DNA from: Phenylobacterium sp.
Lineage (GTDB): Bacteria > Pseudomonadota > Alphaproteobacteria > Caulobacterales > Caulobacteraceae
DNA length: 33,671 bases
Assembly: GCF_016793285.1 (NCBI RefSeq)
Contig: NZ_JAEUMO010000092.1
Location: forward strand, 1 to 33,671
Direction: 5' to 3'
Position 1 is the first letter of the stretch, and each line of letters starts with the position of its first letter. The position numbers were made by a program, and so were the translations under genes. This document shows, piece by piece, positions 2,784 to 30,234 of this stretch. Below the pieces are notes generated by a model, which worked only from the letters and a program-made list of their open reading frames with translations, did not search any database and was not told the origin of the DNA.

Positions 2784-2819
2784 GCCCCACGGGTCTGCCG
2801 CGTATGGTGAGGCCGCCGG

Positions 2820-7354: not shown

Positions 7355-8041
7355 TCAGGCGATCGCGCGGGCGATGCGCGTGCCCACGAACGCGGGACGG
7401 GCCTGCGGCGAGATCGCCCGCAGCATTTCCGGCACGAAGCCATCGAGGATCTTGAATGCCTGGTCCACATCTCCAAGCGTCGAGCAGCGCACCAGGACGC
7501 CGTCGGCGACGTAGCCCTCCATCGCGTTCTTCAGGCGCGCGGTCCGTTGGTCGCCGGCGCTCTGGGGCAACCGTTCGCCCAGTCGCGTCCAGTAGAGGAT
7601 GCTCTCGGTGCGGTCCTCGGTGGTCGCGACCACCCGCCGCGCCGGCAGCATCAGTCCCGACCCCACCGGCAGTTCGGCCGACCGCGTCATCTGCAGAGTA
7701 TAGCCCACGGCCGGATAGCAGCTCTCGGGTCGATGCAACTGGAGCAGATCGCTTTGCGTGTCGCCGTAGGCGATGAGCAGCATCACGCCGGCGCCGGTGG
7801 CGTCGTTGTAGTATGTCCGGCTGATCGTCTCGCTGTAGAGCGTCTTTGCGAGACGGCCCGCCATGTCGGGCGTTATCAGGGCCGCTTCTTCCGACGCCCA
7901 GCCACCGAACTGGCGTGGCAGCGCCTCATCCATCGTGCCCTTCTTGAGCAGCACCAGTCTGCGCCTCGGACGCAGCGCCTCGGCGGTCCCGAGCCCGGCA
8001 AGGGCCATGCCGCTCAGAATCAGGTCACGCCGACGCATCAT
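7355..8041 (-). CDS. epsI: EpsI family exosortase-associated protein
   Basis: A 228-residue protein of the EpsI/DUF3485 family, which is nearly always encoded beside or fused to an exosortase. It has an N-terminal signal/anchor segment (DLILSGMALAGLGTAEAL), then the family features: LPRQFGGWAS, YNDATGAGVMLLIAYGDTQS, and LLQLHRPESCYPAVGYTL, where the HRPExCYPA motif (His, Cys) is the hallmark. Its start (ATGATG at 8041/8038) lies inside the 3' end of the exosortase gene, a 17-bp overlap, so the two are co-translated. EpsI is thought to act with the exosortase in polysaccharide production or sorting in the periplasm; its exact activity is unknown. The HRPExCYPA motif makes the call firm. Confidence 0.93.
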   Translation of the reverse strand: MMRRRDLILSGMALAGLGTAEALRPRRRLVLLKKGTMDEALPRQFGGWASEEAALITPDMAGRLAKTLYSETISRTYYNDATGAGVMLLIAYGDTQSDLLQLHRPESCYPAVGYTLQMTRSAELPVGSGLMLPARRVVATTEDRTESILYWTRLGERLPQSAGDQRTARLKNAMEGYVADGVLVRCSTLGDVDQAFKILDGFVPEMLRAISPQARPAFVGTRIARAIA

Positions 8042-8915
8042 GGCTCCTGATCCCCAAGATCCTCGAAGCGACGCTGTCGATGAGGAACATCAGCAGCAGC
8101 GACAAAGCGAACAGGAAGAGCCCCGCCGTCACGTGCAGGAAGCCCTGTCCCACGGCGTCACCGAAGAAATAGGTGAGCAGGATCAGGAGGACGATGCGGA
8201 TCACGTTGGCGAACACCGCAATCGGAATGATCAGCAGCACCAGGAAGAGCGAGTAACGCCAGCCCGCATTGCGCAGCAGGTAGATGTAGAACGTGGTGAT
8301 CGCGATGAGGCCGATCAGCGAATTGAGGCCCGAGCACGCGTCTTCGACGAGGAGCTGATACGGCCCCACCGTCATCGTCACGCCCTCTCGCACAATCGGG
8401 ATTCCCATGGGCTCGACGATGCCGAACGACATCGCCGACACGATGAGCTTGAGAGGCGCGGTAAACTCGTCGAGCGCCCAGCCCGGCAGCGGCAGCAGGA
8501 GGCCCAGGTACAGGATCGGAAACCAGTTCTTGAGCATCGCGCCCAAGCCGAACCGATCGTAGAGGATGCACAGGCCGAACCCATAGAGACCAGCGGCCTC
8601 CAGGCTGATCAGGTCGTAGGCCCGCCCGAAGACGTAGATCGCCAGCGACGCCAGCGCCCCCAGCAGGGTGACCGGTGTCAGCCCCGGCTTGGCTTGGGCT
8701 TGCATCGCGGGAAGGTTGCGCCAGAGCAGCCATGCTCCGGTCGCCAGGACGATCGGACCGTGGGCGCCGACTTCCTTGCTCCAGACCTGGACGCCAAGCC
8801 GGTAGAGCGTGGGGCCGGCCAGGATCAGGCTGGCGATCAGCAGAGGCGCGTTCGCGGCCCAGCTTGCCCCGGAGGGCTTCGACGGTGTTGCCTCAGCCAC
8901 GGCTGCTTCGCTCAT
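8025..8915 (-). CDS. xrtV: Exosortase (probably XrtV type)
   Basis: A 296-residue integral membrane protein with about eight hydrophobic helices. The three exosortase catalytic positions are visible: Cys194 in VEDACSGLNSLIGL, Arg240 in VFANVIRIVLLILL, and His261 in GFLHVTAGLFLF. Exosortases are membrane transpeptidase-like proteases that cleave PEP-CTERM tags after the protein reaches the outer leaflet of the inner membrane. The assignment to the V type rests on context: EpsI next door and two substrates with PEPxxWA-type tags in the same window (19478-20176 and 29512-30183). The ATG at 8915 shares its first base with the last base of the upstream ATPase-like gene, and the gene overlaps epsI by 17 bp. 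The family call is firm; the subtype is less certain. Confidence 0.92.
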   Translation of the reverse strand: MSEAAVAEATPSKPSGASWAANAPLLIASLILAGPTLYRLGVQVWSKEVGAHGPIVLATGAWLLWRNLPAMQAQAKPGLTPVTLLGALASLAIYVFGRAYDLISLEAAGLYGFGLCILYDRFGLGAMLKNWFPILYLGLLLPLPGWALDEFTAPLKLIVSAMSFGIVEPMGIPIVREGVTMTVGPYQLLVEDACSGLNSLIGLIAITTFYIYLLRNAGWRYSLFLVLLIIPIAVFANVIRIVLLILLTYFFGDAVGQGFLHVTAGLFLFALSLLLMFLIDSVASRILGIRSHDASA

Positions 8916-9625
8916 CAGAGGTCGTTCAGGACCGAACCGATGACGCGGGCTCCGTCCTCCTGCAGCAGCGAGGCGAGTTCGGCGACATCGCTCATCCGCG
9001 AGGTGTGCGCCTTGGCCACGATCAGCGCGTAGCCCACGATGCGGGCGACGCGGATTTCGTCGGCGCCGACGTTCGCGGCGGTGGTGTCGATGATCGTGAA
9101 CTCGAAGTCGCGCAGACACCGCTCGATCAGCGTCTTGAACGACTCGCGCGACAGCAGCTCCTGCGGATTGCTCGCCGCGCCCCCCGAGTACATGACCGAC
9201 AGGTTCGGGATGACCTCGGCGTGGATGTAGTCGCTGAGCTGACGGTCGTCGGCGGCGATGCAATCCTTGAGGCCCGGCTTCACCGTTCCTGGTCGGATGA
9301 AATTCTCCACCTGCGGCGTGCGCAGGTCGGCGTCGATCAGCAACGTGGCGATGCCGGCCTGAGCCAGCGCCACCGCGAGGTTCACCGCCGTGAAGGTGCA
9401 GCCCACCCCGGGGGTGGCTCCGACGAACGCGAGGCCGCGGCGGCCGTCTTCCAGGTGGCGCGCCACCATGTGCGTGCGGATCGTCCGGATGGCTTCGGCC
9501 TCATGCGGCCGGCCTTCCGTAAGCGTCACCAGATCGGGCGACAGCTCGTACTGCTGCCCCTCCAGCCGGTCGGCTCCGTCCGCCCTCGACACCCTCGATT
9601 CCCCTGCTGAAACCGGCGCGTTCAT
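8915..9625 (-). CDS. CpsD/BY-kinase-like ATPase of EPS export, degenerate Walker A (copy 1)
   Basis: A 236-residue soluble protein of the CpsD/CapB/Wzc-cytoplasmic-domain family. The Walker A' motif is intact (TLLIDADLRTPQ, Asp98/Asp100/Arg102), as are the NPQELL segment and Walker B-like FTIIDTT (Asp180). The Walker A loop reads GATPGVGCTFTA: Cys76 stands where the invariant lysine of PGxGKS/T should be, and there is no deviant signature lysine either. The C-terminus has no tyrosine cluster. Normal bacterial tyrosine kinases hydrolyse ATP and autophosphorylate that cluster to cycle the co-polymerase. Here catalysis looks impaired, so a structural or nucleotide-sensing role is more likely. 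The start overlaps the co-polymerase stop (ATGA), as expected for a split Wzc-like pair. See 17259-18011 for a paralogue. Confidence 0.87.
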   Translation of the reverse strand: MNAPVSAGESRVSRADGADRLEGQQYELSPDLVTLTEGRPHEAEAIRTIRTHMVARHLEDGRRGLAFVGATPGVGCTFTAVNLAVALAQAGIATLLIDADLRTPQVENFIRPGTVKPGLKDCIAADDRQLSDYIHAEVIPNLSVMYSGGAASNPQELLSRESFKTLIERCLRDFEFTIIDTTAANVGADEIRVARIVGYALIVAKAHTSRMSDVAELASLLQEDGARVIGSVLNDL

Positions 9626-13164: not shown

Positions 13165-14400
13165 CTAAAGCCGGCTCCTGCGCCCGAGCATCGTTCTGCG
13201 GAGGGTTCCCACGAAGTTGCGCAACGCCTCGACCAGGGGCGCCCGGCGCGCGGCCTCCAGAACCTTGAGGCCGGCCATCCGCGGCCGCGGCTGCAGCGCC
13301 AACGGCAGCGCCAGCGTGCGCGCGAGCACCAACCGCTTGCGGCGCGCCTGCGAGGGCTGCATCGCGTCGATCTCGTTCACCGGGACCGGCTCGGCGTCCA
13401 GGCGGCCAGCGCCCAGGGCGGCGCTCAGCAGCCGCTCACCGGCTTCGGTCCGGCTCACGATCAGGCTGCGGCCCTCCTGCTCGTCGAAGGCCGGATAGCC
13501 GTCGTCGTCGCCATACCAGGCGTCGGCGCAGGCGATGTCGGCGGCGCCGCCGACGGCATCGGGACAGATCTTGCAGCGGAACTGCACCTCTTTCGACAGG
13601 TGCCCACCCCAACTGTCGGGGTACGACATCCGCCCTTCGCCCGTGTCGGTCTCGGCCACGCAGTCCCCCGGCCAGCCGCGCCCCCGGAACCGGAAGGCCC
13701 GCACGTCCTCGAAGGCGACGCCCATGGTCTTCAGGATGCGCCGCACGCCGTCATGACTCGGGATGCCGCCGCAGAAGAACGACAGGACAACCTTGACGTG
13801 GCGTCCGACGCGAGGGTCCCTCAGCGCCAGTTGGCGCAGCGCAGAGACGTCGCACGGCTTGCCGACGACGGCGAACGCCCCGCCGGCGGCAAGTTCGGCT
13901 TCGAGGCCCGCGAGCGGCGAGGAGGCGGTGTAGCGCGAGCCCGCGCGGCGGACGATCTCGGCCGCCGTGCGCGAGACCACGGTCGCATTGCGGGTCGGGT
14001 CGCCCTCGGCGGCCGCCACATGCACGACACGGTCGATCAGTCCGGTCTCCAGCGCATGGATGAGCAGGCCCGAGATCGCGCCACCCGACGATCCTTCGAA
14101 ACGGACCGTCTCGTCGGTGGCGTGCCCGGTGAGCACTCTGCGCCAGGGCCCCCAGTAGGGATGAATCTCTGGCGCGACGCCGGTCCATGGCGCGACGACG
14201 GCGCCGGGGCACGAGGCGGCGATGATCCGTTCGGCCTCGGGCGTGACGCCGCCCGACTGCGCGGGTCGCGCATAGCCGGGCGCGGGCTGCTCCATCCGGA
14301 TGGCGGGCCCGGCCACGGAAGCGCACAGGCCGCACCCCGAGCAGAGTTCGCCCCGAAGCACGCGGGCGACGGTCGGTGAGGTCGCGCCGGACTGCCCCAT
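13165..14400 (-). CDS. FrhB/FdhB-family iron-sulfur flavoprotein-like protein in EPS locus
   Basis: A 411-residue protein of the coenzyme F420 hydrogenase/dehydrogenase beta-subunit family. The N-terminus carries a ferredoxin-like CSGCGLC (CxxCxxC), with a later SCPGA supplying a fourth Cys. Further on are FEGSSGGAISGLLIHAL, VVGKPCDVSALR, SFFCGGIPS and FRCKICPDAVGGAADIACAD, the second Cys cluster plus ADI-D segment typical of the family. Family members bind FeS clusters and flavin and move electrons in varied reductases; bacterial relatives occur in polysaccharide loci with no defined reaction. The ATG at 14400 (AGAG upstream) is preferred over a TTG at 14442. It lies upstream of the export operon in the same direction, 101 bp before it, and divergent from the Alg14-Alg13 gene. 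The substrate is unknown. Confidence 0.82.
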   Translation of the reverse strand: MGQSGATSPTVARVLRGELCSGCGLCASVAGPAIRMEQPAPGYARPAQSGGVTPEAERIIAASCPGAVVAPWTGVAPEIHPYWGPWRRVLTGHATDETVRFEGSSGGAISGLLIHALETGLIDRVVHVAAAEGDPTRNATVVSRTAAEIVRRAGSRYTASSPLAGLEAELAAGGAFAVVGKPCDVSALRQLALRDPRVGRHVKVVLSFFCGGIPSHDGVRRILKTMGVAFEDVRAFRFRGRGWPGDCVAETDTGEGRMSYPDSWGGHLSKEVQFRCKICPDAVGGAADIACADAWYGDDDGYPAFDEQEGRSLIVSRTEAGERLLSAALGAGRLDAEPVPVNEIDAMQPSQARRKRLVLARTLALPLALQPRPRMAGLKVLEAARRAPLVEALRNFVGTLRRTMLGRRSRL

Positions 14401-14530
14401 TCGCTCTACGCCAAAGCTCCCGAACGCCCGTCGCACCGGCAAGGCATCCTCGCCAGACGCCCCGGTCGCCGTGCATTAGGTCGCCAACCGTTCACCATTC
14501 CTTACGGCACTTACCGGGAAATACGCCCCG

Positions 14531-17272: not shown

Positions 17273-18011
17273 GGATCGTTCCGACCACGACCGCGCCGTC
17301 CTGAACAAGTTCCTGCCGTAGCTTCGCGACGTCGTCGACGTAGCTGGTGCTGCGACGCGCCACGATCATCGCGTAACCCACGGCCGCCGCGATCACGCGG
17401 GCATCCGCCGAGCGGTTCGACGGGGGCGTATCGACCACGAGGCAGGTAAACTCCCGCATCGCGCGTCGGACGAACGCGTGGAAGCGCTCGCCTGTGAGCA
17501 ATTCCTGGGAGTCGGCAACGGCGGCGCCGGCATAGGTCAGGGAGAGACCCGGAAGGACGTCTTCGTGAATCAGGTCGATGAACTCGCCTTCGCCCGATCG
17601 CAGGTGCGCCTCCAGACTGACCGGCACGGCGGACGGCCGGATGTAGTCCGACAGGGAGGGTTGCCTGAGGTTCGCGTCGACGAGCAGCGTCGATACGCCC
17701 CTGTCGGCCATGGCGACGGCCAGATTCGCCGCCACGAAGCTGACTCCCGCGCCACGCGCCGCGCCGCACATCACAAGGCCGCGGCGCCCCGCCTCGACAT
17801 GCCGGCTGACCACGGCGTCGGCGCACTCGCGCAACGCGTCATCCTGCCTGGAGTGCGGCGCAGACAGGACGACGAGATTGGGCGAGAATTCGTACTCGCC
17901 GTCGGACAGGCGAGCGTTGGGCGCGACCTGGGCGACCGGGCGCGCGCGATCCTTCCGCAGTTTGCGCGCCTTCTCGGGCCTCGCATCCCTCTTGCTCCCG
18001 GGGCGGAGCAT
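17259..18011 (-). CDS. CpsD/BY-kinase-like ATPase, degenerate Walker A (copy 2)
   Basis: A 250-residue paralogue of the protein at 8915-9625. A basic N-terminal tail (RPEKARKLRKDRARP) precedes the ATPase fold. Walker A' is TLLVDANLRQPS (Asp112, Arg116; the second Asp is Asn114) and Walker B is CLVVDTPPS (Asp194). The Walker A loop is GAARGAGVSF, with Val90 at the catalytic lysine position, so it departs from the consensus even more than copy 1. There is no C-terminal tyrosine cluster. The ATG at 18011 shares one base with the stop of the upstream co-polymerase (TGATG); a start at 18041 would overlap that gene by 31 bp and is less likely. It probably partners the co-polymerase at 18011-19348. 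Confidence 0.85.
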   Translation of the reverse strand: MLRPGSKRDARPEKARKLRKDRARPVAQVAPNARLSDGEYEFSPNLVVLSAPHSRQDDALRECADAVVSRHVEAGRRGLVMCGAARGAGVSFVAANLAVAMADRGVSTLLVDANLRQPSLSDYIRPSAVPVSLEAHLRSGEGEFIDLIHEDVLPGLSLTYAGAAVADSQELLTGERFHAFVRRAMREFTCLVVDTPPSNRSADARVIAAAVGYAMIVARRSTSYVDDVAKLRQELVQDGAVVVGTILNGA

Positions 18012-19348
18012 CAAGCCGCGACGGCTCGGCGGTGACGCCAAGGCCGTCGCCGCATCCAGGCCGCAGCCCTGCGGCGGACCTGGGGCGCCGTCGGGATCTG
18101 GCCGAACAACGGCGCCTCGGCCGCGACCTGAAGGTCTTCCGCCCTGCGGACCCTGCGCGCCATCAGCTCGGTCATCCCGGCGATGAGAACGCCCAGCACC
18201 AGGCCCAGCGCGCCCGATCCGCCGAGGATGAGCAGCGGGTTGGGGAACACCGGTTTCGGCTTGGCGCTCGCCGGCCCGAGCGGCGTGATGCTCGTTTCCT
18301 TGGCCGTGGACATCTGGCGCAGTTCGGCGGCCTGCTTCAGCATCTCATTGATCTGGAACGTGTAGCCGTCGATCTCATCCTGCATCAGCCGCAGCTTCAT
18401 CACGTCGACACGCTGGCTCAGCACCTTGGACTTCTGCGCGTCGGCGAGCTGGGCGGCCAGCCGGTCACGTGTCGCCACCATTGCCGCCATCTGCTGATCG
18501 CCTGAGCCGATCCTGTCGACGTTCAGCTTGAGCTGGTCGCGCTGGGCTTCCAGCGTCTTCAGCGCCGGGTTGTTGGGCCCCAGCACACGCCTCGCTTCCG
18601 TGAGCGCCGACTCGGCCTCCGCCAGGCGCACCGAAGCCGCGGTATAGTAGGGTTGGCTCACGTAGCTTCGACCGTCGAGCCGCAGCATCTGCTTGAGGCG
18701 CGCGCTGTCGACGTCGAACTTCTTGCCTTCCTGCATCACGATGCCCGTGGACTTCTCGAGAGCCGTCTGCCGGTCCTGCGCCTGCTTGAGTTCGGCCGAG
18801 ACCTTTTCCGCACGGGCCATGAGGTTGTCGGCGCCAGCCTGCGACGAGATCGCTCGCTGTGCGATCGTCCCCTGGACATAGGCCTCCCGGACGGCCTCTA
18901 CGACGACCTTCGCGGCCTGTGGATCCGGCGCGCGGTAGCGGATCTCAAGGATGCTGCTGTCTTCGACCGGCACGGCGTTCAACGCACCCATGATCCGTTG
19001 CGCCACCCACATCGGGTACTCCGGCTTCCCGTCGGGGAGCGCGTTGTAGGCGTCGAGGAGGTCCGGGTTGTCCATCATGCCCAGGGACTCAACTGCGGGT
19101 ATCGCCACCTGGTAGTCGCGGATGAAGCTGAGTTGGGAATTGACGTAGGCGTTGAGCATCTTGTTCGGCACCTGCGCCCCGGTCACCGGGTCGGGCTTCA
19201 CGTAGTCGAGGATGACCCGGGCGGAAGCTTCATAGCGTGGCACCGAGGTGATCTGGACCGTAAGGCCGCCGGCAAGGCAGGCCAGCGTCGAGGCCAGGAT
19301 GACCACGCGACGCCCCCACAGCACGTCGAAGATGTGCCCGAGCTTCAT
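18011..19348 (-). CDS. GumC/Wzz-family polysaccharide co-polymerase (copy 2)
   Basis: A 445-residue inner-membrane protein with the same architecture as the one at 9622-10968: a first membrane helix at about 16-33, a Wzz domain with RYEASARVILDYVKPDPVTG, coiled-coils at about 165-345 (VMKLRLMQDEIDGYTFQ), a Pro-rich KPKPVFPNP and a second helix at about 372-392. It ends with a basic tail (RRRAAAWMRRRPWRHRR). It has no fused kinase; the ATPase-like gene follows with a one-base overlap. Upstream a terminator separates it from the PEP-CTERM gene, so this pair forms its own unit. A second co-polymerase could serve a different polymer or chain-length mode. Confidence 0.9.
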   Translation of the reverse strand: MKLGHIFDVLWGRRVVILASTLACLAGGLTVQITSVPRYEASARVILDYVKPDPVTGAQVPNKMLNAYVNSQLSFIRDYQVAIPAVESLGMMDNPDLLDAYNALPDGKPEYPMWVAQRIMGALNAVPVEDSSILEIRYRAPDPQAAKVVVEAVREAYVQGTIAQRAISSQAGADNLMARAEKVSAELKQAQDRQTALEKSTGIVMQEGKKFDVDSARLKQMLRLDGRSYVSQPYYTAASVRLAEAESALTEARRVLGPNNPALKTLEAQRDQLKLNVDRIGSGDQQMAAMVATRDRLAAQLADAQKSKVLSQRVDVMKLRLMQDEIDGYTFQINEMLKQAAELRQMSTAKETSITPLGPASAKPKPVFPNPLLILGGSGALGLVLGVLIAGMTELMARRVRRAEDLQVAAEAPLFGQIPTAPQVRRRAAAWMRRRPWRHRRAVAA

Positions 19349-20410: not shown

Positions 20411-20578
20411 ACGGATGCGGCCGCCTCCTGGATGCAATCCGGATGCAACTCGGCGATTCCGCCCCGGCGTGGCATTAAGCAAACAGAAGGCAGCACCGGG
20501 GCACTAAGGCGTCCGTGTGCTGATCGCGTGCGTAGGGCGTCTGTAGGCGAACGCGCGCGCGGACATTGGAGAGCGATC

Positions 20579-21958
20579 TTGGCAGGCTGGAATCCCTTCA
20601 GGCGGAAGACCCCCGCGAAAGCCGCGCGCGCCGAGGCGCTGCCGACGGCGGTCGTGAAGCCGCTGATCCGCGAGGCGCACCGCCGCGGCAACGAGGGCGG
20701 CGGCCTGCCGCGCTTCAACACCACCGCCAGCGACCAGATGAGCGGCCGCGGCGGCGACCGCTTCGCCCTGGTCCGCGCCAAGCTGCGCCATGCCTTCACG
20801 CCGTCGCAGCCTGTGGCGGATCGTCGCCTGTTCGCCGGCCGCGACGACACGCTGAAGACCATCATCCGCGCGATCGAGGACCAGCGGCTGCACGTCGTGC
20901 TGTACGGCGAACGCGGGATCGGCAAGACCTCGCTGCTCCACGTCCTCAGCCAGGCCGCCAGCGAGGCGCGTTACATCGTCGTCTACACGTCCTGCGGCGC
21001 GAACTCGAACTTCGACGAGACGTTCCGCGCGGCCGCCGCCGAGATCCCGCTTCTGTTCCACTCGGGCTTCTCGCCCACCGCCGAGGTCACCGAGAAGGGC
21101 TCGACCCTCGCCGACCTGCTGCCGAGCGAGCCGCTCTCGCCGCGCAAGTTCGGCGATCTGTGCGCCAAGCTCACCGGCACGCGGGTGCTGATCATCCTCG
21201 ACGAATTCGACCGCGCCGAGTCGGGCTCGTTCCGCCGCGACGTCGCCGAGCTGATCAAGAACCTGTCGGACCGCCTGGGCCGGGTGCAGCTCGTGCTGGC
21301 CGGCGTGGCCGCCGACCTGACCGAGCTGGTCGAGCACATCCCGTCGATCCGCCGCAACATCTTCGCGCTGCGCGTGCCGAAGATGTCGGAAGGCGAGGTC
21401 ATGCAGATCGTCGCCAACGGCGAGCGCGAGGCCGACCTGAAGTTCGACACGCCCGCAGGGGCCTTCGTCGTCGAGGTGGCCCGGGGATCGCCCTATATCG
21501 CCAACCTCATCTGCCACCACGCCGGCCACGCGGCCCTGGACCAGGGCCGCGCGACGGTCTCGCCGGCCGACGTCGCCAACGCCGTGGACCGCGCGATCCT
21601 GGAGTTCCAGGGCCGCATCCCGACGCCGGCGCAGGCGCGCGTGCGCCGCCTGTTCGAGCAGGGCCGCCAGGACGCCCTGGCCATGACCGCGCGCGCGGCG
21701 CTGGCCGCCGACGGCGTCTTCGACAGCGCCGACCTCGAGAGCAGCAACGAGATCACCGCCCGCAAGGCCCAGGAGGCTGTCGAGGTGCTGGTCGCCGAGG
21801 GACTCGTGAAGCCGTCGCCGGGCGACGGGCCCTCGCAGCGCTACGCGTTCGTCGAGGAAGGCCTTCCGACGCTCATCTGGATGATCTGGGCCCAGCGCAA
21901 CCTGAACCGCGAGCCGCAGGCGCAATCCCAGCCGACCCGGGCCGCCACCGCCTCCTGA
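20579..21958 (+). CDS. AAA-family ATPase (Orc1/Cdc6- or STAND-like)
   Basis: A 459-residue protein. A basic N-terminal tail (WNPFRRKTPAKAARAEALP) is followed by a P-loop ATPase domain: LFAGRDDTLKTIIRAI, Walker A YGERGIGKTSLL (109-120), Walker B VLIILDEFD (203-211), then LVLAGVAADLTELVEH and IPSIRRNIFALRVPKMS, which resemble the sensor regions. The C-terminal part looks like a winged helix (AQEAVEVLVAEGLVKPSPGD). This is the layout of Orc1/Cdc6- and STAND-like ATPases, whose roles range from DNA binding to signalling; the target is unknown. The TTG at 20579 has GGAGAG six bases upstream and is preferred over an ATG at 20432 that adds 49 unlikely residues. It ends at a bidirectional terminator. 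Confidence 0.8.
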   Translation: MAGWNPFRRKTPAKAARAEALPTAVVKPLIREAHRRGNEGGGLPRFNTTASDQMSGRGGDRFALVRAKLRHAFTPSQPVADRRLFAGRDDTLKTIIRAIEDQRLHVVLYGERGIGKTSLLHVLSQAASEARYIVVYTSCGANSNFDETFRAAAAEIPLLFHSGFSPTAEVTEKGSTLADLLPSEPLSPRKFGDLCAKLTGTRVLIILDEFDRAESGSFRRDVAELIKNLSDRLGRVQLVLAGVAADLTELVEHIPSIRRNIFALRVPKMSEGEVMQIVANGEREADLKFDTPAGAFVVEVARGSPYIANLICHHAGHAALDQGRATVSPADVANAVDRAILEFQGRIPTPAQARVRRLFEQGRQDALAMTARAALAADGVFDSADLESSNEITARKAQEAVEVLVAEGLVKPSPGDGPSQRYAFVEEGLPTLIWMIWAQRNLNREPQAQSQPTRAATAS

Positions 21959-22044: not shown

Positions 22045-22983
22045 CTACTTGGCCTCGGGCGTCGCCGGGGCCGCGGCCGCCGGGGCCGCGGCAGGCGCGG
22101 CGGCGGCCGGAGCCTTCGCGGCCGGGGCGGCCTTCTTCTCCGGCGGCGGCTTGAAGGCCGGGTTGTAGGTGATCTTCGGCTCGGCCGCCTTGCGCAGGTC
22201 GGCGAGCTGCTTGCCGACGCTCTGCTGCGCCTTCTGGCCGCGGAGCGCGTTCATGGCGTAGGCGTTGGCCACCGTGCCGGTGAGCGGCGCCGAGCGGCTG
22301 GACGAGACCTGGTTGAAGAGCAGCGCGCCGCCCTGCGGGATCACGAAGATCTCGCCCGGAGGCAGGTTGTTGATCCCGGCGACGAGGCGCGGATCGGCCG
22401 ACAGCGTATCGAGCACCGCGGCGTTCTCCTGGTACTGCACGCCCTCGCTGTCGAGCAGCGCCTTGACCTCGCCCAGCGTCTTGAGCGGGCGCAGCCGGTC
22501 CGGCGTGATCTTGCTGGGCGCGGCGATGACCTGGTCGACGAACAGCACCCGGCGGTTCGCGAACATCTCGGGGTGAGACGACACGAAGGCCTCGGCCTCG
22601 GTGCGGCTGGGCTGGGCCAGCTTGGCCGCCAGCTTGCGCTGGTAGAGCTGGGCCAGCAGCGTCTCCTCGCCGCGCTTCATCTGCAGCGTGAAGTCGGTGG
22701 TCTTGTCGAGCTTCTCGTCCTTGGCCTTCTGGGCCAGCAGGCGGCGCATGATGATCCGCTGCAGCGCCTGCTGCTGGGCGGCCTTCATCACGGCCGGATC
22801 GCGCGATCCGAAGTTCCCGAGCTCGGCGCGAAGCTCGAGGTTCGTGATCTCCTCGCCGTCGACGGTCGCCACGACCTGGCCCTTGGCCTTGCCGCCCCCA
22901 GCCAGCTTCTTGATCTGGTCGCAGCCCGTGAGCCCCATCGCCGCCACCACGGCCACCGCCGCAAACAGCTTCGTCGCTTTCAA
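22045..22983 (-). CDS. EpsD-family peptidyl-prolyl isomerase-like lipoprotein
   Basis: A 312-residue lipoprotein: the signal ends in a GLTGC lipobox with Cys21, followed by a SurA/PpiC-type chaperone region (VVATVDGEEITNLELRAEL, then QQQALQRIIMRRLLAQKAK) and a degenerate parvulin-like part (VLFVDQVIA to GGALLFNQV). This matches EpsD-family proteins of exopolysaccharide loci, which are thought to help fold or stabilise export components in the periplasm. The last ~45 residues are Lys/Pro/Ala-rich and probably disordered. The start codon is TTG at 22983 with GGAGGG four bases upstream, the best-placed Shine-Dalgarno here. A promoter-like sequence lies just upstream and a terminator follows, so it is probably a single-gene unit. 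Confidence 0.85.
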   Translation of the reverse strand: MKATKLFAAVAVVAAMGLTGCDQIKKLAGGGKAKGQVVATVDGEEITNLELRAELGNFGSRDPAVMKAAQQQALQRIIMRRLLAQKAKDEKLDKTTDFTLQMKRGEETLLAQLYQRKLAAKLAQPSRTEAEAFVSSHPEMFANRRVLFVDQVIAAPSKITPDRLRPLKTLGEVKALLDSEGVQYQENAAVLDTLSADPRLVAGINNLPPGEIFVIPQGGALLFNQVSSSRSAPLTGTVANAYAMNALRGQKAQQSVGKQLADLRKAAEPKITYNPAFKPPPEKKAAPAAKAPAAAAPAAAPAAAAPATPEAK

Positions 22984-23077: not shown

Positions 23078-23638
23078 TCAGCCTTCCGGCCCGGCAGACG
23101 GGGGCGTCGGCGCCTTCTGAGCCGCCTTCGCACCCGGTGCGCCGAGCGGTCGAACCTTGCGCGCGAATTCCTTTACTCCAAGAAAACCCATGGGAACCTC
23201 GGTCCGGGCGATCGCCACGGCCGGATTGCCCTGCACGATGGTCAGCGGCGGCACCGAGCGCGTCACCACGCTCCCGGCCGTCACCACCGCCCCACGCCCG
23301 ATAACCACGTTGGGCATGATGATCGCGCCGACCCCGATGTAGGCGCCTGCCTCGATCTTCACCCCCGCCGACTCGCGGAAGTGCGCGATGATCGTCGACC
23401 GGATGCCGATCAGCACGTCGTCGCCGATCTCGACGAGCCACGGCTTGTTCGTCTCGATGATGGCGTCGTAGCCGATCCACACGTTGTCGCCGATCGTGAC
23501 GCCGCGTGCGCGGTGCAGCTTGACCCGCATGCCGCTGCCGCCCGGCAGGAACCTGGCCATCAGTTGATAGACGCGGTTCCAGAATCCGCGCCAGCGGTTC
23601 GCCTCGCGAAAGCCGTATCGCAGCTTCTCCTCGGTCAT
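23078..23638 (-). CDS. Left-handed beta-helix acyltransferase (WcaF/WbbJ-like)
   Basis: A 186-residue protein with hexapeptide repeats forming a left-handed beta-helix: VTIGDNVWIGYDAIIETNKP, VEIGDDVLIGIRSTIIAHF, VKIEAGAYIGVGAIIMPNVV, IGRGAVVTAGSVVTRSVPPL, ending with VQGNPAVAI. The HF in IIAHF holds the likely catalytic His. The family uses acetyl-CoA to O-acetylate sugars, as in capsule and lipopolysaccharide assembly. The ATG at 23638 has GAGGGG upstream. It begins 14 bp after the end of the GNAT gene and ends the operon. It most likely acetylates a repeat-unit sugar; the C-terminal Ala/Pro tail is unusual but short. Confidence 0.88.
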   Translation of the reverse strand: MTEEKLRYGFREANRWRGFWNRVYQLMARFLPGGSGMRVKLHRARGVTIGDNVWIGYDAIIETNKPWLVEIGDDVLIGIRSTIIAHFRESAGVKIEAGAYIGVGAIIMPNVVIGRGAVVTAGSVVTRSVPPLTIVQGNPAVAIARTEVPMGFLGVKEFARKVRPLGAPGAKAAQKAPTPPSAGPEG

Positions 23639-23651
23639 CCGCCGCAGCCCC

Positions 23652-24632
23652 TCAGAACACGTCCATGTACATCGAGCCCAGATTCGACTCAGGACGAACG
23701 TCACTGTTCCAGCTCGACAGATACGCATGCAGCACACGCGCGGACGGCTTGAAGTGCGCTTCCGCGAAAGGCGTGAGGTCGGCCCAGCCGGTCTGCGGCG
23801 CCACCGCCAGACGCGCGCCACGCAGGCGCGCCTTGGCGATGAATGCGGCCACCAGCTCCTTGCGCTCCCCGGCCTCCAGGTCGCCCCAGAGGATGTCGTC
23901 GATGAAGAGGCACAGTGGACGATCACCTTCGGCGACCTGTTGAACGTAGCCGGCGAGCACGCCCTGACGTGGACCGCGCGCCAGACGCACGGCCAGAGCG
24001 CCCTCGCGCCGGTTGACCTGCCAGTCGGCCTCCTCGACCGTCCAGCGGCGCCGCAAGTCGGCCTTCGGCGCGCGAGCCGCCAGATCGGCCAGCGCCGGCG
24101 CGAGCATCGGATCGTCGGCCTCGCCGCCGTCCTCGCCCTTTCTCGGCAACAGGATGCGCGAGATGAAGCGCACGCTTTGCACGCGGGCCGTCGGCACGGC
24201 CATCGCGTCTGTGCAACGCTGGACGACGCCGTTCATCGCGCCGCCGTCCGCGCAGTAGAGAAGCGTGGCGTCGTGACCCTCTGCGCGGGCGCGCTCGATC
24301 AGCGCCGCCATCAGATCGAAGGCGATGCCCTCTCCTCGGCGCGTCGGGCTTACGCTGAAGAACGACCCCACGACCACGCTGAGCGGCCGCCCGCCGCATT
24401 CCGCGGGCCGCGGTAGCCCCGCCGCGAAGCCGACCGGAGTCTCGCCGTCATAGAGGGTCGGCGCGAGCCTGGGCCCGGCCCCCGGGTAGGCCAACATCGA
24501 GCGAAGGAAATCAGGCGTGTAGAGCAGCGCCTGGTCGACATCGGCCCAGGCCGCCTGCACGGCCTCGGCGAGACCTTCGTATCCGCCTCGGAAGTCCTCC
24601 ATCACGTGTGGAGGCGCCGACGGTCGGCTCAT
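23652..24632 (-). CDS. GNAT-fold acyltransferase linked to the ACP gene
   Basis: A 326-residue protein with an N-terminal GNAT domain: VVVGSFFSVSPTRRGEGIAF (about 86-105), carrying the RRGEGI acyl-donor loop, and the helix DLMAALIERARAEGHD. The C-terminal half (about 180-326) has weaker features (LCLFIDDILWGDLEAGERK, LRGARLAVAPQTGWADL) and may be a second, degenerate GNAT domain, which would fit tandem-GNAT enzymes. The ATG at 24632 shares one base with the ACP stop codon, so it is translationally coupled to ACP. This placement implies that it takes its acyl or aminoacyl group from the carrier protein rather than from free CoA. The acceptor, probably an amino or hydroxyl group on a sugar, is not known. 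Confidence 0.8.
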   Translation of the reverse strand: MSRPSAPPHVMEDFRGGYEGLAEAVQAAWADVDQALLYTPDFLRSMLAYPGAGPRLAPTLYDGETPVGFAAGLPRPAECGGRPLSVVVGSFFSVSPTRRGEGIAFDLMAALIERARAEGHDATLLYCADGGAMNGVVQRCTDAMAVPTARVQSVRFISRILLPRKGEDGGEADDPMLAPALADLAARAPKADLRRRWTVEEADWQVNRREGALAVRLARGPRQGVLAGYVQQVAEGDRPLCLFIDDILWGDLEAGERKELVAAFIAKARLRGARLAVAPQTGWADLTPFAEAHFKPSARVLHAYLSSWNSDVRPESNLGSMYMDVF

Positions 24633-24901
24633 CAACCCGCGACCCGCTCGACAACGAAGCTCGCCAGCGGGCCGACGACGGTCATGTCCTCAGGATCGAG
24701 CTCCTCGAAGTCCAACTCCTCCCCGAACCGCTGCTGCAGCGTTTCCACAAGCGAGAGCATGCCCAGCGAGTCGATCATGCCGGACAGCAGGAGGTCGCAG
24801 TCGTCCGCCAGATCGGCGGGCGAGTAGGCGCCGTCGCCATGCGTGGCGTTCAGAAACTCAGCCAGGACGGCCCGCACATCGTCTGCGGTCACAGCGCTCA
24901 T
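24632..24901 (-). CDS. Stand-alone acyl/peptidyl carrier protein
   Basis: An 89-residue acidic protein with the carrier-protein signature GMIDSLGMLSLVETLQQRFG; Ser45 in DSL is the phosphopantetheine attachment site. The region before (DCDLLLSGMI) and after (ELDFEELDPEDMTVV) fits the four-helix ACP/DltC fold. It starts within an ATGA overlap with the adenylation enzyme gene and ends within a one-base overlap with the GNAT gene, so the three are made together. It should be loaded by the upstream adenylation enzyme and unloaded by the GNAT protein. A phosphopantetheinyl transferase must be supplied from elsewhere. Confidence 0.93.
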   Translation of the reverse strand: MSAVTADDVRAVLAEFLNATHGDGAYSPADLADDCDLLLSGMIDSLGMLSLVETLQQRFGEELDFEELDPEDMTVVGPLASFVVERVAG

Positions 24902-26505
24902 AGTCCCTCCTCGAGCATCTTGGTCAGTGCGCCCCGATCGAACTTGTCGTTGGCGTTCCTAGGAATCCTGTCGAGGAAGTGGATGCGGCGCGGCGTCATG
25001 TAGTCCGGCAGGCGCTTGGAAACCACATCGCGGATCACGCCGCCCTCGCCGCCGCCCTCGACAAAAGCCTCGACGCCGCCGTAGCCGCTCGGCGTCGCGG
25101 GCCACCCCAGCGCGACGGCGCCGTCGAGGCCGGTGGCGTCGCGGATCGCTTGCTCGATCTCACCGAGCTCGACGCGGTAGCCCATCACCTTGACTTGAAA
25201 GTCCACCCGCCCGAGGTGGGTCATGGGGCGGCCGCCGGCCGTCCGGCGCACCCGGTCTCCGGTGCGGTAGAACACCTGGTCGCGGCCCGGTGGCGTGACG
25301 AAGGCCGCGGCCGTCTTGTCCGGATCGTTCCAGTAGCCGAGCGACATCTGCGGGCCGGCCATCAACAGTTCGCCGGTCTCGCCGGGCTGGACCTCGTTCA
25401 GCGCCTCGTCGACCACCAGCACCTGCATGCCCGGATAGGGGTCGCCGATCGGGACGATGCCCATCTCGCAATCAGCCGGCGAGCGCTCGCGGTCCCAGCG
25501 GTAGCGGGTGCAGGCGATGGTGAGCTCGGTCGGGCCGTAGAGGTTTTCGATGACGCCGTTGGGCGCGGCCTCGCTCCAGGCGACCACGGAAGCCGCCGGC
25601 AGCGGCTCACCGCAGAACAGGCAGAGGCGCAGCGATGGGTAACGGTCCGGCTTCAGCATGCCGAGCTGCTTCATGAAGATTGCGGTCGAGGGGACCGAGA
25701 ACCAGATGGTCAGCTCCATCTCGCGGATGAACTGGCCCGGCTTGATCAGTGTCTTCTGCGAGGGGCAGCACAGCATCGCGCCGCGCTCCCAGCAGACGAA
25801 CATGTCGAAGACCGACAGATCGAAGGTCATGTCGAACATCTGCGAGAAACGATCGGTCTCGCGAGGGTCGTAGAGGTCGACCATGTAGTCGATGAAGGCG
25901 ACGACGTTGCGGTGGGCGACCATCACGCCCTTGGGGATGCCCGTGCTGCCCGAGGTGAAGAGCAAGTAGGCGATCGCGTTCGGATCGGTGACCGGCGCGC
26001 GCCAAGCCTCTGCGCTCTTCAGCTCCGCGGCGCTCAGGAAGACGTGGGCCGGCCAGCGAGTCCTCAGCTCCGCTACGTCGTCAGCGTCGAGGGCCATGAC
26101 CACAACGCCCGGCTCGGCCTCGTCCAGGAGGCCGGAGAGTTGCGCCTGACAGGCGGCGTCCACGATGAGCGTCCGGCAACCGGAGCGCCGGAACATGGCC
26201 CGCGTGCGCTCGATCGGAAAGCTGGGATTCAACGGCACATAGCCGTGACCCGCGAGCAGCGCACCCAGCACGCCCACGAAGGCCGTGCGCGAACGATATG
26301 CGAAGACGGCCGTCAGCTCGACGCCGCCCGGATCGAACTCGGCCAGCGTGGCGGCCACAGCCTTGGCCCGGGTTTCGAGTTCGCGATAACTTAGAGTTTC
26401 GCCCTGGACAGCAAGGGCTGGGCGGTCCGGAAAACGAGCCGCCGAGGCGGCAAACCCCTCCCATAGGGCTTCCTTCGTCACGCGGCCCACCTCAGACAAC
26501 TGCAT
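24898..26505 (-). CDS. Amino-acid-type adenylation enzyme (DltA/NRPS A-domain family)
   Basis: A 535-residue ANL-superfamily ligase with the full set of core motifs: LLFTSGSTGIPKGVMVAHRN (A3, about 181-200), DMTFDLSVFDMFV (A4), NLYGPTE (A5), GETGELLMAG plus GYWNDPDKT (A6), FYRTGDRV (A7), GRVDFQVKVMGYRVELGEIE (A8) and PRNANDKFDR with Lys521 (A10). Asp229 in FDLS corresponds to the Asp that binds the substrate alpha-amino group in A-domains and DltA, which points to an amino acid rather than a fatty acid. It would adenylate the substrate and load it on the overlapping ACP. The ATG at 26505 has GGAGGG upstream, partly inside a small hairpin. Exosortase A loci carry analogous ligase/ACP pairs. 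Substrate not assigned. Confidence 0.87.
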   Translation of the reverse strand: MQLSEVGRVTKEALWEGFAASAARFPDRPALAVQGETLSYRELETRAKAVAATLAEFDPGGVELTAVFAYRSRTAFVGVLGALLAGHGYVPLNPSFPIERTRAMFRRSGCRTLIVDAACQAQLSGLLDEAEPGVVVMALDADDVAELRTRWPAHVFLSAAELKSAEAWRAPVTDPNAIAYLLFTSGSTGIPKGVMVAHRNVVAFIDYMVDLYDPRETDRFSQMFDMTFDLSVFDMFVCWERGAMLCCPSQKTLIKPGQFIREMELTIWFSVPSTAIFMKQLGMLKPDRYPSLRLCLFCGEPLPAASVVAWSEAAPNGVIENLYGPTELTIACTRYRWDRERSPADCEMGIVPIGDPYPGMQVLVVDEALNEVQPGETGELLMAGPQMSLGYWNDPDKTAAAFVTPPGRDQVFYRTGDRVRRTAGGRPMTHLGRVDFQVKVMGYRVELGEIEQAIRDATGLDGAVALGWPATPSGYGGVEAFVEGGGEGGVIRDVVSKRLPDYMTPRRIHFLDRIPRNANDKFDRGALTKMLEEGL

Positions 26506-26589: not shown

Positions 26590-27528
26590 TCAGACAGGGG
26601 CCAGAGTGACCAAGACGGGGTAGTGATCCGAGCCCAGCCGCGGGCCGCGTGCGACCTCGACGAGGCGCCAGCCCGAGCCCGCGTAGACATGGTCGATCGG
26701 CAGGAACGGCGCGAGGGCGGGAAGCCGATTATGGCTCACCCGCTCAGCCGGCCAACTGAACACACCGCGCGTTCGGCGCTCCAGCCCGAGTTGGCGGTCG
26801 TAGCGGCGCTGTACGAACGACCAAGGCGTCGAATTGAAGTCGCCAGCCAGGATCATGCGGTCACGCGGCAGGCCGTCGAGGCGGCTCAGCACGCGAGCGA
26901 ACTCTTCCCGGTTGACCCGCGGCCGTACAGGCCAGGCCAGATGCATGCCGGCCACCGTGTAGGGCCCGCGCGCGTCCGCAAACGACGCCACCGAGACTGA
27001 CGGCGACCACCCGACGCGCGGCTCGGCAGCGTTGTCGCTCAACGGCTTACGGCGCGAGAGGATCGAGGCCAGGCAGTCGCGGCAGGCTACGTAGTAGTCG
27101 CCTGTCGCAAGCAGCTTGCGGCGCACGACGCCTCCTTCCTCAAGAACTATGACGTCAGGACGCTGCGACCGGATCCAGGTCACCGCCTCGTCGGCGCGGC
27201 GATTGTCGGCGAGCGCATTGAACTGGATGATGCGGAAGCGTTCGCCTCCGGATGGCCCGGTCTGCGGGGCCGCAGCGTACTCGGGCGCCAGCAGCCCGAC
27301 GCCGAGCAGCAAGGCTACGATCCCACAAGCGGCAGCGAACGGGCGGCTTCGGCGACGCCCAAGCGCCCAGCCTGCCGCGCCTCCCAATCCGCCCATCGCG
27401 GTCGTCAGCGGCGCGAAATGGTTCGGCAGGTCGAGGAAGTCGTTGAACCGGCCGCCCTGCCCCACGACCAGGGCAAGTGCCGAGAGCGCGGCGAGTCCCG
27501 TCGCGATCGAGGCCATCGCGCCGCGCAT
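26590..27528 (-). CDS. Membrane-anchored endonuclease/exonuclease/phosphatase-fold protein
   Basis: A 312-residue protein with two or three N-terminal membrane helices (about 5-23, 40-58 and 66-84) and an EEP-fold catalytic domain from about residue 98: RIIQFNALADNR, DVIVLEEGG (metal-binding Glu), MILAGDFNSTPW, PIDHVY and the C-terminal GSDHYPV with catalytic His302. The fold covers DNases, phosphodiesterases and lipid phosphatases; with a membrane anchor a phospholipid or polyprenyl-phosphate substrate is possible but unproven. It starts 15 bp after rmlA, so it belongs to the rml operon, and the adenylation gene follows 84 bp downstream. Relatives occur in other polysaccharide loci without a defined role. 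Confidence 0.85.
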   Translation of the reverse strand: MRGAMASIATGLAALSALALVVGQGGRFNDFLDLPNHFAPLTTAMGGLGGAAGWALGRRRSRPFAAACGIVALLLGVGLLAPEYAAAPQTGPSGGERFRIIQFNALADNRRADEAVTWIRSQRPDVIVLEEGGVVRRKLLATGDYYVACRDCLASILSRRKPLSDNAAEPRVGWSPSVSVASFADARGPYTVAGMHLAWPVRPRVNREEFARVLSRLDGLPRDRMILAGDFNSTPWSFVQRRYDRQLGLERRTRGVFSWPAERVSHNRLPALAPFLPIDHVYAGSGWRLVEVARGPRLGSDHYPVLVTLAPV

Positions 27529-27543
27529 CTCGTGGCGACCTGA

Positions 27544-28419
27544 TCAGTCGCCGCGGGTGGCGAGTTCGCGGAGGTAGCGGCCGTATTCGCTCTTGCCCTG
27601 CACCTCGGCCGACTTCAGCAGCTCGTCCCGGTCGATCCAGCCGTTCTCGAAGGCGATCTCCTCGAGGCAGCCGATGCGCAGGCCCTGGCGCTGTTCGAAG
27701 ACGCGGATCAGCTCGCCGGCGCCGATGAGGCTGTCGTGGGTGCCGGCGTCCTCCCAGGCGAAGCCGCGGCCCAGAAGCTCGACGTGCAGCCCGCCTTCCT
27801 GAAGGTAGACGTCGTTCAGCGCGGTGATCTCCAGCTCGCCGCGGGCCGAGCGCGCGAGCGTCTTGGCGATCTCGCTGGCGCGGCCGTCGTAGAAGTAGAG
27901 GCCGGTCACCGCGTAGTTCGACTTCGGGTTCGCCGGCTTCTCCTCGATGGAGACGGCGCGGCCGTCGGCGGTCAGCTCCACCACGCCGTAGCGCTCGGGA
28001 TCATGCACGGGATAGCCGAACACCGTGGCCCCGTCCGCGCGCGCGTCGGCGTTCTTCAGCATCTGCACGAAGTTCTGCCCGAAGAAGATGTTGTCGCCGA
28101 GGATCAGCGTCGAGGGCTGGCCGCCGACGAAGTCCTCGCCCAGCAGATAGGCCTCGGCCAGGCCGCCCGGATGGGGCTGGACCACGTACTCGAACCGCAC
28201 GCCGAACCGCGAGCCGTCGCCCAGCAGGCGCATGAAGCCCGCCTGGTCCTCTGCGGTGGTGATGAGCAGGATCTCCCGGATGCCGGCCAGGAACAGCACC
28301 GACAGCGGGTAGTAGATCATCGGCTTGTCGTAGACGGGCAGCAACTGCTTCGACGTCGCCATGGTCAGCGGGTGCAGCCGGGTGCCGGCGCCGCCGGCGA
28401 GAACGAGACCCTTCCTCAT
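27544..28419 (-). CDS. rmlA: Glucose-1-phosphate thymidylyltransferase
   Basis: A 291-residue enzyme of standard RmlA length that joins dTTP and glucose-1-phosphate to give dTDP-glucose in the cytoplasm. The nucleotide-binding start [16 protein letters not shown] and the following [20 protein letters not shown] are hallmarks. Further conserved segments are [10 protein letters not shown] (metal-binding Asp), [18 protein letters not shown] and [17 protein letters not shown]. It starts 10 bp after rmlB and precedes the EEP-fold gene by 15 bp. It supplies the first step of deoxy-sugar synthesis for the repeat unit. No rmlC or rmlD follows. Confidence 0.97.
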
Positions 28420-28429
28420 CGCCCTGCCC

Positions 28430-29479
28430 CTACGCCTTCACCAGACCGAGGCGGTCGGAATGGAACCCGCGCTCGCGGATCCGCTCGACCCAGCCGTAGT
28501 TGTCGACGTACCACTGCACGGTGTCTTCGAGCCCCTGCTCCAGCGGCATGCGGGCCTTCCAGCCCAGCTCGCGCTCCAGCTTGGCGGAGTCGATCGAGTA
28601 GCGGAAATCGTGGCCCGGCCGGTCGGTGACGAACGCGATCTTGTCGGCGTGCGACGTGTTGGCCGGCGCCATCCTGTCGAGGTGGGCGCAGATGGCCCTC
28701 ACGATCTCGATGTTGCGCTTCGTGGCGTCGCCGCCGATGCAGTAGGTCTCGTTCAGCAGGCCCTTCTGCAGCACCAGCAGCAGCGCCTCGGCGTGATCGT
28801 CGACGTGCAGCCAGTCGCGCACCTGGCGGCCGTCGCCGTAGACCGGGATCGACTTGCCCTCGAGCGCGCGGGTGATCACCGTCGGGATCAGCTTCTCGGG
28901 GAACTGGTGCGGACCGTAGTTGTTCGAGCAGTTGGTGATCACCACCGGCAGCTTGAAGGTATGGCCCCAGGCGCGGACCAGGTGGTCGGCGGCGGCCTTC
29001 GAGGCCGAGTACGGCGACTTCGGATCGTAGGGCGTCTCCTCGGTGAAGTCGCCGGTTTCGCCCAGGGCGCCGAACACCTCGTCGGTGGAGACGTGATGGA
29101 AGCGGAAGGCGTCCTTCGCCGGCCCCTCCAGCCTGTTCCACCAGGCGCGGGCGACTTCCAGCAGCACCGCCGTCCCGGTGATGTTCGACTTCACGAAGTC
29201 GAGCGGGCCTTCGATGGCGCGGTCGTTGTGGCTTTCCGCCGCCAGGTGCATCACCGCGTCGGGCCGGTGCCTGGCGAAGACGGCTTCGAGCCTGGGCCGG
29301 TCACAGACGTCGACGTGCTCGAAGGCATAGCCGGGATCGTTCGCGACGCCCTCGACGTTCTCGAGGTTCGCCGAATAGGTCAGGGCGTCCAGGTTCACCA
29401 CCTGGTGGCCGTCGGCGATGGCGCGCCGAACGACGGCCGAGCCGATGAATCCGGCTCCGCCGGTAATCAGGATCTTCAT
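28430..29479 (-). CDS. rmlB: dTDP-glucose 4,6-dehydratase
   Basis: A 349-residue extended short-chain dehydrogenase. It starts [18 protein letters not shown] (NAD-binding GGxGFIG), with [25 protein letters not shown] (with TDE, the RmlB active-site triad residues Thr-Asp-Glu), [15 protein letters not shown] (Tyr/Lys of YxxxK) and [17 protein letters not shown], all diagnostic. It converts dTDP-glucose to dTDP-4-keto-6-deoxyglucose, the branch point to rhamnose, fucosamine-like and other amino deoxy-sugars. The ATG at 29479 has AGGAAGG upstream; a start at 29515 would add 12 residues and lacks support. It starts 32 bp after the second PEP-CTERM gene and is probably cotranscribed with it. Confidence 0.97.
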
Positions 29480-29493
29480 GCGCGCCTTCCTGT

Positions 29494-29509
29494 GCGGGCG
29501 GCCGCCCGC
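29494..29509. repeat. 16-bp perfect GC palindrome between PEP-CTERM gene 2 and rmlB
   Basis: GCGGGCGG followed by its complement, ending 2 bp before the PEP-CTERM stop codon at 29512 and 15 bp upstream of the rmlB start. It has no loop bases in DNA, and no U-tract follows on the minus strand, so it is not a standard terminator. It could stabilise or partly terminate the transcript so that the sorting-tag protein and rmlB are made in different amounts. Confidence 0.5.
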
Positions 29510-29511
29510 CG

Positions 29512-30183
29512 TCAACTCCCGGCGCGCACTGTGCCCCGGCGCAGGTTTACGGGCCCTTGCACTCGCCGCCGCAGCGCCGCGCCGGTGAGGCCGAAGCCGA
29601 CGATCAGCAGCGCCCAGGCCGCCGGCTCGGGGACGCCGGCGATCGTGACGGTCTGGGTGAGCGTGCCTTCGAGGCTGGTTCCGACCCCCGCGAGCTCCAC
29701 CGAGATCAGGAATTCGTTCAGGCCCGAGCCGGCGTAGCGGCCGAAGGTCCCGTCCGACCCAAGGATCGTGAAGTCGACGAGCGGGGTGACCACCGTCACG
29801 AGGTCGCTGGGGTCGCCGCCGGGCAGCGAGGTCTCAGGATACCGCGTGTCGATCGCCGCCGTGCCGATGAGGTCGAAGCTCGTGCCCCCGCCGCCATCGT
29901 CCACGCCGGGCCCGGTCAGGAACACGGTCCAGCTCACGTCCTCGGCCGGACGGACCGACGGATCGTCGCCCGCGGACACGTCCTTGAACTGAGACGTCCT
30001 GCCGACGAACGAGAAGCTGACGCCGGTGATCGTGCCGGGGCCGGAGTACTGCGGAAGGAACAGCGACTCCACGAGCGCGTAGGTGAAGTCGACCGTCGCC
30101 GTCGAAACCACTGTGGCGGCCGCCGCGGGACCGGCCAAGAACAGCGACGCGACGCAGGCAAGCTTCACGATGAGACGCGACAT
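29512..30183 (-). CDS. PEP-CTERM (PEPxxWA-type) sorting-tag protein 2
   Basis: A 223-residue exported protein. It has a signal peptide ([20 protein letters not shown]), a body of beta-type segments without recognisable domain ([34 protein letters not shown]), and the tag [18 protein letters not shown] (184-201) with a hydrophobic helix and RRR. Unusually, 16 more residues ([16 protein letters not shown]) follow the basic patch, which normally ends the protein. The ATG at 30183 has GGAGGGTG upstream. It should be processed by the exosortase at 8025-8915, over 20 kb away in the same locus. Position directly before rmlB suggests the protein belongs to the polymer. Function unknown. Confidence 0.9.
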
Positions 30184-30234
30184 CACACCCTCCACTCCAG
30201 GGACGGCATGGTAAATCCTGTGGGACGCCGAAAG

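Follow-up and report, generated by a model that had tools for sequence, protein, structure and literature searches.

In the Phenylobacterium sp. stretch analysed here (the window; 33,671 nucleotides, the entire contig C157 of a draft genome of 4,487,260 bases in 271 contigs), three overlapping minus-strand genes at 23652-26505 encode an adenylation-domain (A-domain) enzyme, an acyl carrier protein (ACP) and a GNAT protein within an exopolysaccharide (EPS) locus. Considering family, pocket and gene overlap, the A-domain enzyme would convert a small amino acid, likeliest glycine, into the aminoacyl-AMP, from which the aminoacyl group would be placed as a thioester on the phosphopantetheine at Ser45 of the ACP. 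The GNAT protein would then, in the cytoplasm and prior to export, move the aminoacyl group from the ACP to a sugar nucleotide or to the lipid-linked repeat unit, attaching it at a hydroxyl or an amino group. We give an even chance to the GNAT protein being the aminoacyl transferase to an EPS precursor. Every step has a proven counterpart elsewhere, in the Sbz set for the transfer involving A-domain enzyme, ACP and GNAT protein and in AlmEFG for the glycylation.

The gene junctions agree with the preliminary description of the window, which had noted three genes overlapping in ATGA/TGATG fashion. The A-domain gene (24898..26505; 535 aa) starts with ATG at 26505, preceded by GGAGGG, and its stop forms an ATGA overlap with the start of the ACP gene (24632..24901; 89 aa), immediately upstream of which lies GAGGAGGG. 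The ACP stop in turn overlaps the GNAT start codon as TGATG, giving a GNAT gene at 23652..24632 and a protein of ~326 aa from the ATG at 24632; the mechanical list of open reading frames (ORFs) puts this start at a TTG one codon earlier. It is through the translational overlaps that the GNAT protein is tied to the ACP.

Adenylation enzyme, carrier protein and known systems

Asp229 had been taken as a sign of an amino acid substrate, and family assignment and pocket both speak for that view. The A-domain enzyme passes the amino acid adenylation model TIGR01733 (340.5 bits, cut-off 317.4) as well as Pfam PF00501 (246.1 bits, cut-off 29.9), and it stays far below the cut-offs of the acyl-CoA (coenzyme A) ligase models in NCBIfam. 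Membership in the DltA family was rejected, the curated cut-off of the equivalog TIGR01734 being missed (256.4 bits, cut-off 559.85); the search of the own genome with this model reached 249.8 bits at best, none above cut-off. Membership in the exosortase-A ligase family TIGR03098 was likewise rejected (208.4 bits vs 592.35). The ACP matches PF00550 above cut-off (24.4 bits, cut-off 20.8) and has its phosphopantetheine site, of the DSL type, at the previously named Ser45 in GMIDSLGML.

The pocket residues, obtained from HMMER alignments to solved structures together with tblastn, are D229, L230, F233, S270, L296, C298, L322, I330 and A331, plus K521, so that the Asp for the alpha-amine (D229) and the A10 Lys (K521) are both present. 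Counted by hand from one alignment, D229/L230/C298/K521 correspond to D247/L248/C316/K452 of AlmE, and D229/L230/C298 to D197/L198/C269 of DltA. AlmE uses L248 and C316, the Leu and Cys found here as L230 and C298, for excluding D- and larger L-amino acids; DltA uses L198 and C269 for substrate choice; and C217, A285 and T318 are the reported determinants of IdnL7, which accepts Gly, L-Ala and L-Ser (all as reported in a review, PMC11253843). None of the three IdnL7 determinants is present in the A-domain of the window. The nine-residue code equals that of AlmE (DLHSFCLIA) at 7/9 positions, of IdnL7 (DCFSLALIT) at 6/9 and of Staphylococcus aureus DltA (DLMSFCTVA) at 5/9, and Leu322 is the residue of AlmE, with Thr at that position in DltA. 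Four acyl-CoA-ligase-like paralogues from the own genome, read as controls, have the Asp replaced by T, A, G and a gap, respectively. Among related A-domains read likewise (n = 32), the Asp is found in 32/32 and the Leu/Cys pair in 15/32; the code DLHSLCLIA occurs in 3/32 and the exact code of the window in 0/32.

Because the pair common to AlmE and DltA is present, the IdnL7 residues are absent and Leu322 is AlmE-like, glycine is the predicted first choice and D-Ala the second. By our own estimate, the A-domain enzyme very probably acts on a small amino acid, and glycine in particular is slightly more likely than not to be its substrate. The specificity prediction from the code, as proposed at the outset, thus has AlmE as its nearest reference and glycine as its likeliest outcome. 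The contrary case envisaged there, an A-domain acting on fatty or aryl acids only, appears unlikely from the pocket.

Among known systems, AlmE-AlmF-AlmG of Vibrio cholerae shares with the window the stand-alone A-domain and carrier protein, the D/L/C/K pocket and the 7/9 code. In that system, glycine activated by AlmE is carried on AlmF until AlmG attaches it to lipid A (PMC12930378). AlmG is a lipid A acyltransferase, whereas the window has a GNAT protein in an EPS locus; the neighbours of the A-domain gene match the GNAT, hexapeptide, EpsD and endonuclease/exonuclease/phosphatase families, as seen without a genome search for AlmG. The layout of adenylation enzyme, carrier protein and GNAT protein is that of SbzB-SbzG/K-SbzC from SB-203208 biosynthesis, a likeness of layout and not of compared sequences. 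There, SbzB charges SbzG or SbzK with beta-methylphenylalanine, which the GNAT protein SbzC transfers to a hydroxyl, CoA being no substitute for the carrier protein; with SbzI, the carrier-bound amino acid ends up on an amine (PMC6331615). The window differs in that the Sbz set belongs to Actinobacteria and serves beta-methylphenylalanine transfer to a secondary-metabolite acceptor. The likeness in logic to D-alanylation, drawn earlier, is well founded in the activate-load-transfer layout, the carrier protein and the Leu/Cys pair of an AlmE/DltA-like pocket, but DltA-DltC-DltB-DltD employs a membrane MBOAT transferase for teichoic acid D-alanylation, unlike the GNAT protein next to an A-domain below the DltA cut-off. 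The ligase/ACP/decarboxylase set of exosortase-A loci also combines an AMP-forming ligase with an ACP in an exosortase EPS locus, but the TIGR03098 cut-off is missed, the exosortase is of type V and a decarboxylase does not adjoin. Flagellar glycosylation genes of Aeromonas with an ACP and an AMP-dependent synthetase were not taken as a match, being described as of fatty-acid type (PMC7874193).

By analogy, the window may work like AlmEF plus SbzC, an AlmE-like donor joined to a GNAT protein in an EPS locus. Each step has a precedent; the combination of such a donor with a GNAT protein in a polysaccharide locus would be new, and among the papers listed in the literature searches, none was seen to describe a set of A-domain, ACP and GNAT protein for a polysaccharide. 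If true, the abilities of exosortase EPS loci would extend to decoration with amino acids through a soluble transferase, with a substrate amenable to direct test, and the exosortase-V polymer would receive a positive, zwitterion-forming substituent.

GNAT protein and the occurrence of related loci

The GNAT protein matches PF00583 (34 bits, cut-off 20.7) over residues 55-125 only, gives no match to PHROGs or NCBIfam and finds just weak matches among PDB sequences (E 0.08). Two fold predictions were both poor (mean pLDDT 30.4 and 45.7); the better one reaches a confidence of 70-90 in 51/327 residues, which lie within the N-terminal GNAT core. Its C-terminal half, predicted with low confidence, has a strand-strand-helix order, and Foldseek lists Eis and NMT, each with two GNAT units, as matches across ~266-308 columns at a template-modelling score (TM) of 0.26 or less. 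Against two tandem GNAT-like proteins, a profile comparison reached a probability of 50% over 96 columns (E 1.6e-4). The C-terminal half is thus possibly a second GNAT-like unit, a hint rather than a result. Another polysaccharide locus (L114), with no match to A-domain or ACP, encodes a 368-aa protein that may also contain two GNAT units.

In evenly drawn genome samples, counted with the own genome of the window, related A-domains occur in 3/199 genomes of the family and 4/385 of the class (both E <= 1e-70), and in 18/398 of the phylum (E <= 1e-80), 14 of these 18 coming from one family (f197). We compared 29 loci (20 stretches fetched around A-domain matches, 8 others and the window), all 29 of which gave the A-domain again. 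To judge from these sequences, A-domain and ACP are a lasting unit, since 25/29 loci with related A-domains give a match to a hidden Markov model (HMM) of the ACP; the model was built from 11 of the 25, leaving an independent tally of 14/18, and matches were counted per stretch, at whatever distance from the A-domain. The loci lacking a match are L018, L091, L094 and L095, with L018 nonetheless having an annotated ACP.

The link to a GNAT protein, singled out earlier as distinctive, proved indeed to be rare. An HMM built from the distant matches of the window's GNAT protein and run over the 29 loci found that protein (E 1.8e-18), a match in L058 (E 0.025) and a stretch of L098 (E 0.002); this stretch adjoins the ACP gene but runs on the other strand, and was taken for a chance match. 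Besides an ACP and an A-domain with the code DLHSLCLIA, locus L058 encodes a polysaccharide deacetylase, a formyltransferase, a methyltransferase and a GNAT-like protein that stays below the PF00583 cut-off (17.1 bits, cut-off 20.7). It plausibly represents a second, weaker set of A-domain, ACP and GNAT protein, and is the only other of the 29 loci with a plausible, though weakly scoring, GNAT neighbour. Direct blastp between the two GNAT proteins gave nothing, and a tree of 25 A-domains places that of the window neither with L058 nor within any small clade of good support; it neither shows nor excludes a shared inherited cassette of A-domain, ACP and GNAT protein.

Several observations count against EPS glycylation by the GNAT protein. 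Its RGEGIA loop at residue 100 is an intact, CoA-type Q/R-x-x-G-x-G/A loop and fits plain acetyl-CoA use. Its relatives are few and weak: 4/199 genomes of the family set and 3/385 of the class set, the own genome included, hence 3/198 and 2/384 others; none in plasmids; and 7 loci with short, weak matches in the genome_contigs scan, six of them single-domain proteins of 182-203 aa and the seventh giving no ORF. A-domain or ACP was found near 0/7 of these in the fetched stretches, a test insensitive for ACPs. Regarding the pocket, the score ranking of the pocket region puts IdnL7 (121.9 bits) and 8k4r (117.6 bits) before AlmE in third place (92.9 bits), and the six code positions shared with IdnL7 point the same way. 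Furthermore, the A-domain and ACP pairs elsewhere have other partners. In L104, A-domain and ACP are accompanied by an MBOAT protein (52 bits) and a 364-aa protein without assignment, a layout that recalls Dlt in other surroundings. In f197 (L089-L099), the A-domain (code DAYSVGSIC or near) and the ACP occur with a 478-520-aa protein without Pfam match, the 478-aa partner being seemingly a membrane protein. Leisingera has a C-terminal stretch of ~350 aa, without match in Pfam or NCBIfam, fused to A-ACP; the gene lies on an EPS plasmid, next to rml genes and one for a sulfotransferase. A fused GNAT, which would have spoken strongly for the link, was not found by Pfam or blastp in the A-ACP fusions of roseobacters, and the Solidesulfovibrio loci have A-domain and ACP with no GNAT according to blastp of two flanking hypothetical proteins.

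These findings suggest DltA/AlmE-like A-domain and ACP pairs as a donor module for varied transferases in envelope loci, which would alter the annotation of 'NRPS-like' (non-ribosomal peptide synthetase-like) genes. We tentatively propose, at somewhat less than even odds, a joint scenario in which the window holds a dedicated cytoplasmic EPS glycylation line, and A-domain and ACP are a portable donor to various envelope transferases: the GNAT protein in the window and L058, the MBOAT protein in L104, the 478-aa membrane protein in f197 and the fused C-terminal domain in roseobacters. As a separate observation, L016, L017, L057, L100 and L105 encode A-ACP proteins of ~910-1210 aa with an extra, unassigned stretch, lying beside or fused close to sulfotransferase genes and some of them on EPS plasmids.

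Alternative explanations for the gene set

The assignment of the GNAT protein as transferase, made in the preliminary description, is favoured by the layout and the overlap with the ACP gene, but is called into question by the intact CoA-type loop and by a second acyltransferase next in the operon. The latter, a left-handed beta-helix (hexapeptide-repeat) protein of ~186 aa (23078..23640, minus, ATG at 23638-23640; PF00132 43.3 bits, cut-off 27), confirms the beta-helix neighbour already noticed and starts 13 bp past the GNAT stop. Hexapeptide enzymes of the LpxA/LpxD type accept ACP thioesters, and this protein might accordingly be the one that moves the aminoacyl group off the ACP, leaving the GNAT protein some other target to acetylate, such as another sugar or, on the attached amino acid, the amino group. 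The closeness of the two genes and the CoA-type loop of the GNAT protein would suit such a division of labour. In NCBIfam, however, the hexapeptide protein comes closest to sugar O-/N-acetyltransferases using acetyl-CoA, without reaching the cut-off of any, and the ACP gene overlaps the GNAT gene and not the hexapeptide gene; on balance we consider the hexapeptide protein an unlikely aminoacyl transferase.

It is also conceivable that A-domain and ACP serve to make a small, soluble compound that has nothing to do with the polysaccharide (a lipid, a signal, or an N-acyl or aminoacyl metabolite), their place in an EPS locus being incidental. Related A-domains do lie beside a hydrolase (L102), beside GcvT and a beta-lactamase-like protein (L059) and beside sulfotransferases (L057 and the L105 region); GNAT proteins of the FeeM type make N-acyl amino acids from acyl-ACP (PMC6331615), and the N-acyl tyrosines called stieleriacines are the subject of a paper listed in a literature search on exosortases (PMC7293339). 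Against this stand the unbroken minus-strand run from rmlB to EpsD, the several relatives in polysaccharide loci (L016, L017, L058, L106), and the GNAT protein itself, for which NCBIfam gives, up to an E of 1, neither a FeeM model nor one of the exosortase N-acyl amino acid synthases; we judge a soluble product to be rather improbable. Should the enzyme instead have the function of DltA as a D-alanine ligase, the outcome would be a D-alanyl polysaccharide. L230 and C298 are common to DltA, the DltA models are next best in NCBIfam after TIGR01733 (256-262 bits), and even AlmE mis-activates D-Ala (PMC12930378); yet with the TIGR01734 cut-off missed, Leu322 in place of the Thr of DltA, and the partners DltB and DltD not seen in the locus, D-alanylation is given little credence.

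Locus surroundings and the possible acceptor

On the minus strand, the order of genes is rmlB, rmlA, a gene of the endonuclease/exonuclease/phosphatase family, A-domain, ACP, GNAT, hexapeptide acyltransferase and EpsD, without interruption. The rmlB-rmlA pair thus lies upstream as first described, with one gene in between. The rmlB product, dTDP-glucose 4,6-dehydratase (ORF limits 28430..29515, domain match from ~29479), passes TIGR01181 (448.7 bits, cut-off 365.1); the nucleotidyltransferase at 27544..28419 (PF00483, 234.5 bits) is named rmlA from context; the intervening gene lies at 26590..27528 (PF03372, 67.5 bits). An 84-bp gap separates it from the A-domain start, and it is possible that the A-domain gene has its own promoter after this gap. 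The peptidyl-prolyl isomerase of the EpsD family (22045..22983, minus) matches TIGR02925 with 113.5 bits (cut-off 108.9).

The wider locus comprises Wzx-, Wzy-, Wzz- and SLBB-type polysaccharide genes, glycosyltransferases, PEP-CTERM proteins, EpsI (242.2 bits with its V-type model, cut-off 228) and an exosortase. The exosortase (8025..8916, minus, start approximate within the ORF 8025-9263) passes the exosortase V (XrtV) model NF035943 (317 bits, cut-off 313), and the PEPxxWA-CTERM protein at 29512..30195 (minus) matches NF035944 (47.4 bits, cut-off 35). The locus is an XrtV exopolysaccharide locus; the relation to exosortase A proposed earlier fails on this point and on the low TIGR03098 score.

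An amino sugar, proposed earlier as possible acceptor, finds no backing in the genome. Matches of the RmlC type (contigs C190 and C148) and a strong RmlD match (C240, 323.6 bits) occur elsewhere, and since rmlB passes its model and RmlC and RmlD are present, the genome encodes a complete rhamnose route, which rmlBA may simply feed. The 10 matches to PF01041 aminotransferases in the genome include 2 strong ones, PseC on C113 (483.1 bits, cut-off 423.5) and one on C45 below the cut-off of all seven listed families; none of the 10 was assigned as a dTDP-amino-sugar aminotransferase. The genome hence does not support the rml branch as a source of an amino sugar, for which the C45 protein would be the remaining candidate, and an ester on a hydroxyl, as made by SbzC, is by analogy equally possible.

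Further features of the window include two EpsF/Wzz-like chain length proteins on the minus strand (9622-10968 and 18011-19348; 226.9 and 184.9 bits, EpsF cut-off 422.75) and, on the plus strand opposite to the EPS genes, an AAA_16/STAND-like ATPase (20432-21958). Also on the plus strand, RTX-type calcium-binding repeats (1758-3908; PF00353) are followed by a NosD/right-handed beta-helix protein. Finally, an FrhB_FdhB-type protein (13165-14442, minus; PF04432/PF04422) lies amid the glycan genes and is possibly polysaccharide-modifying.

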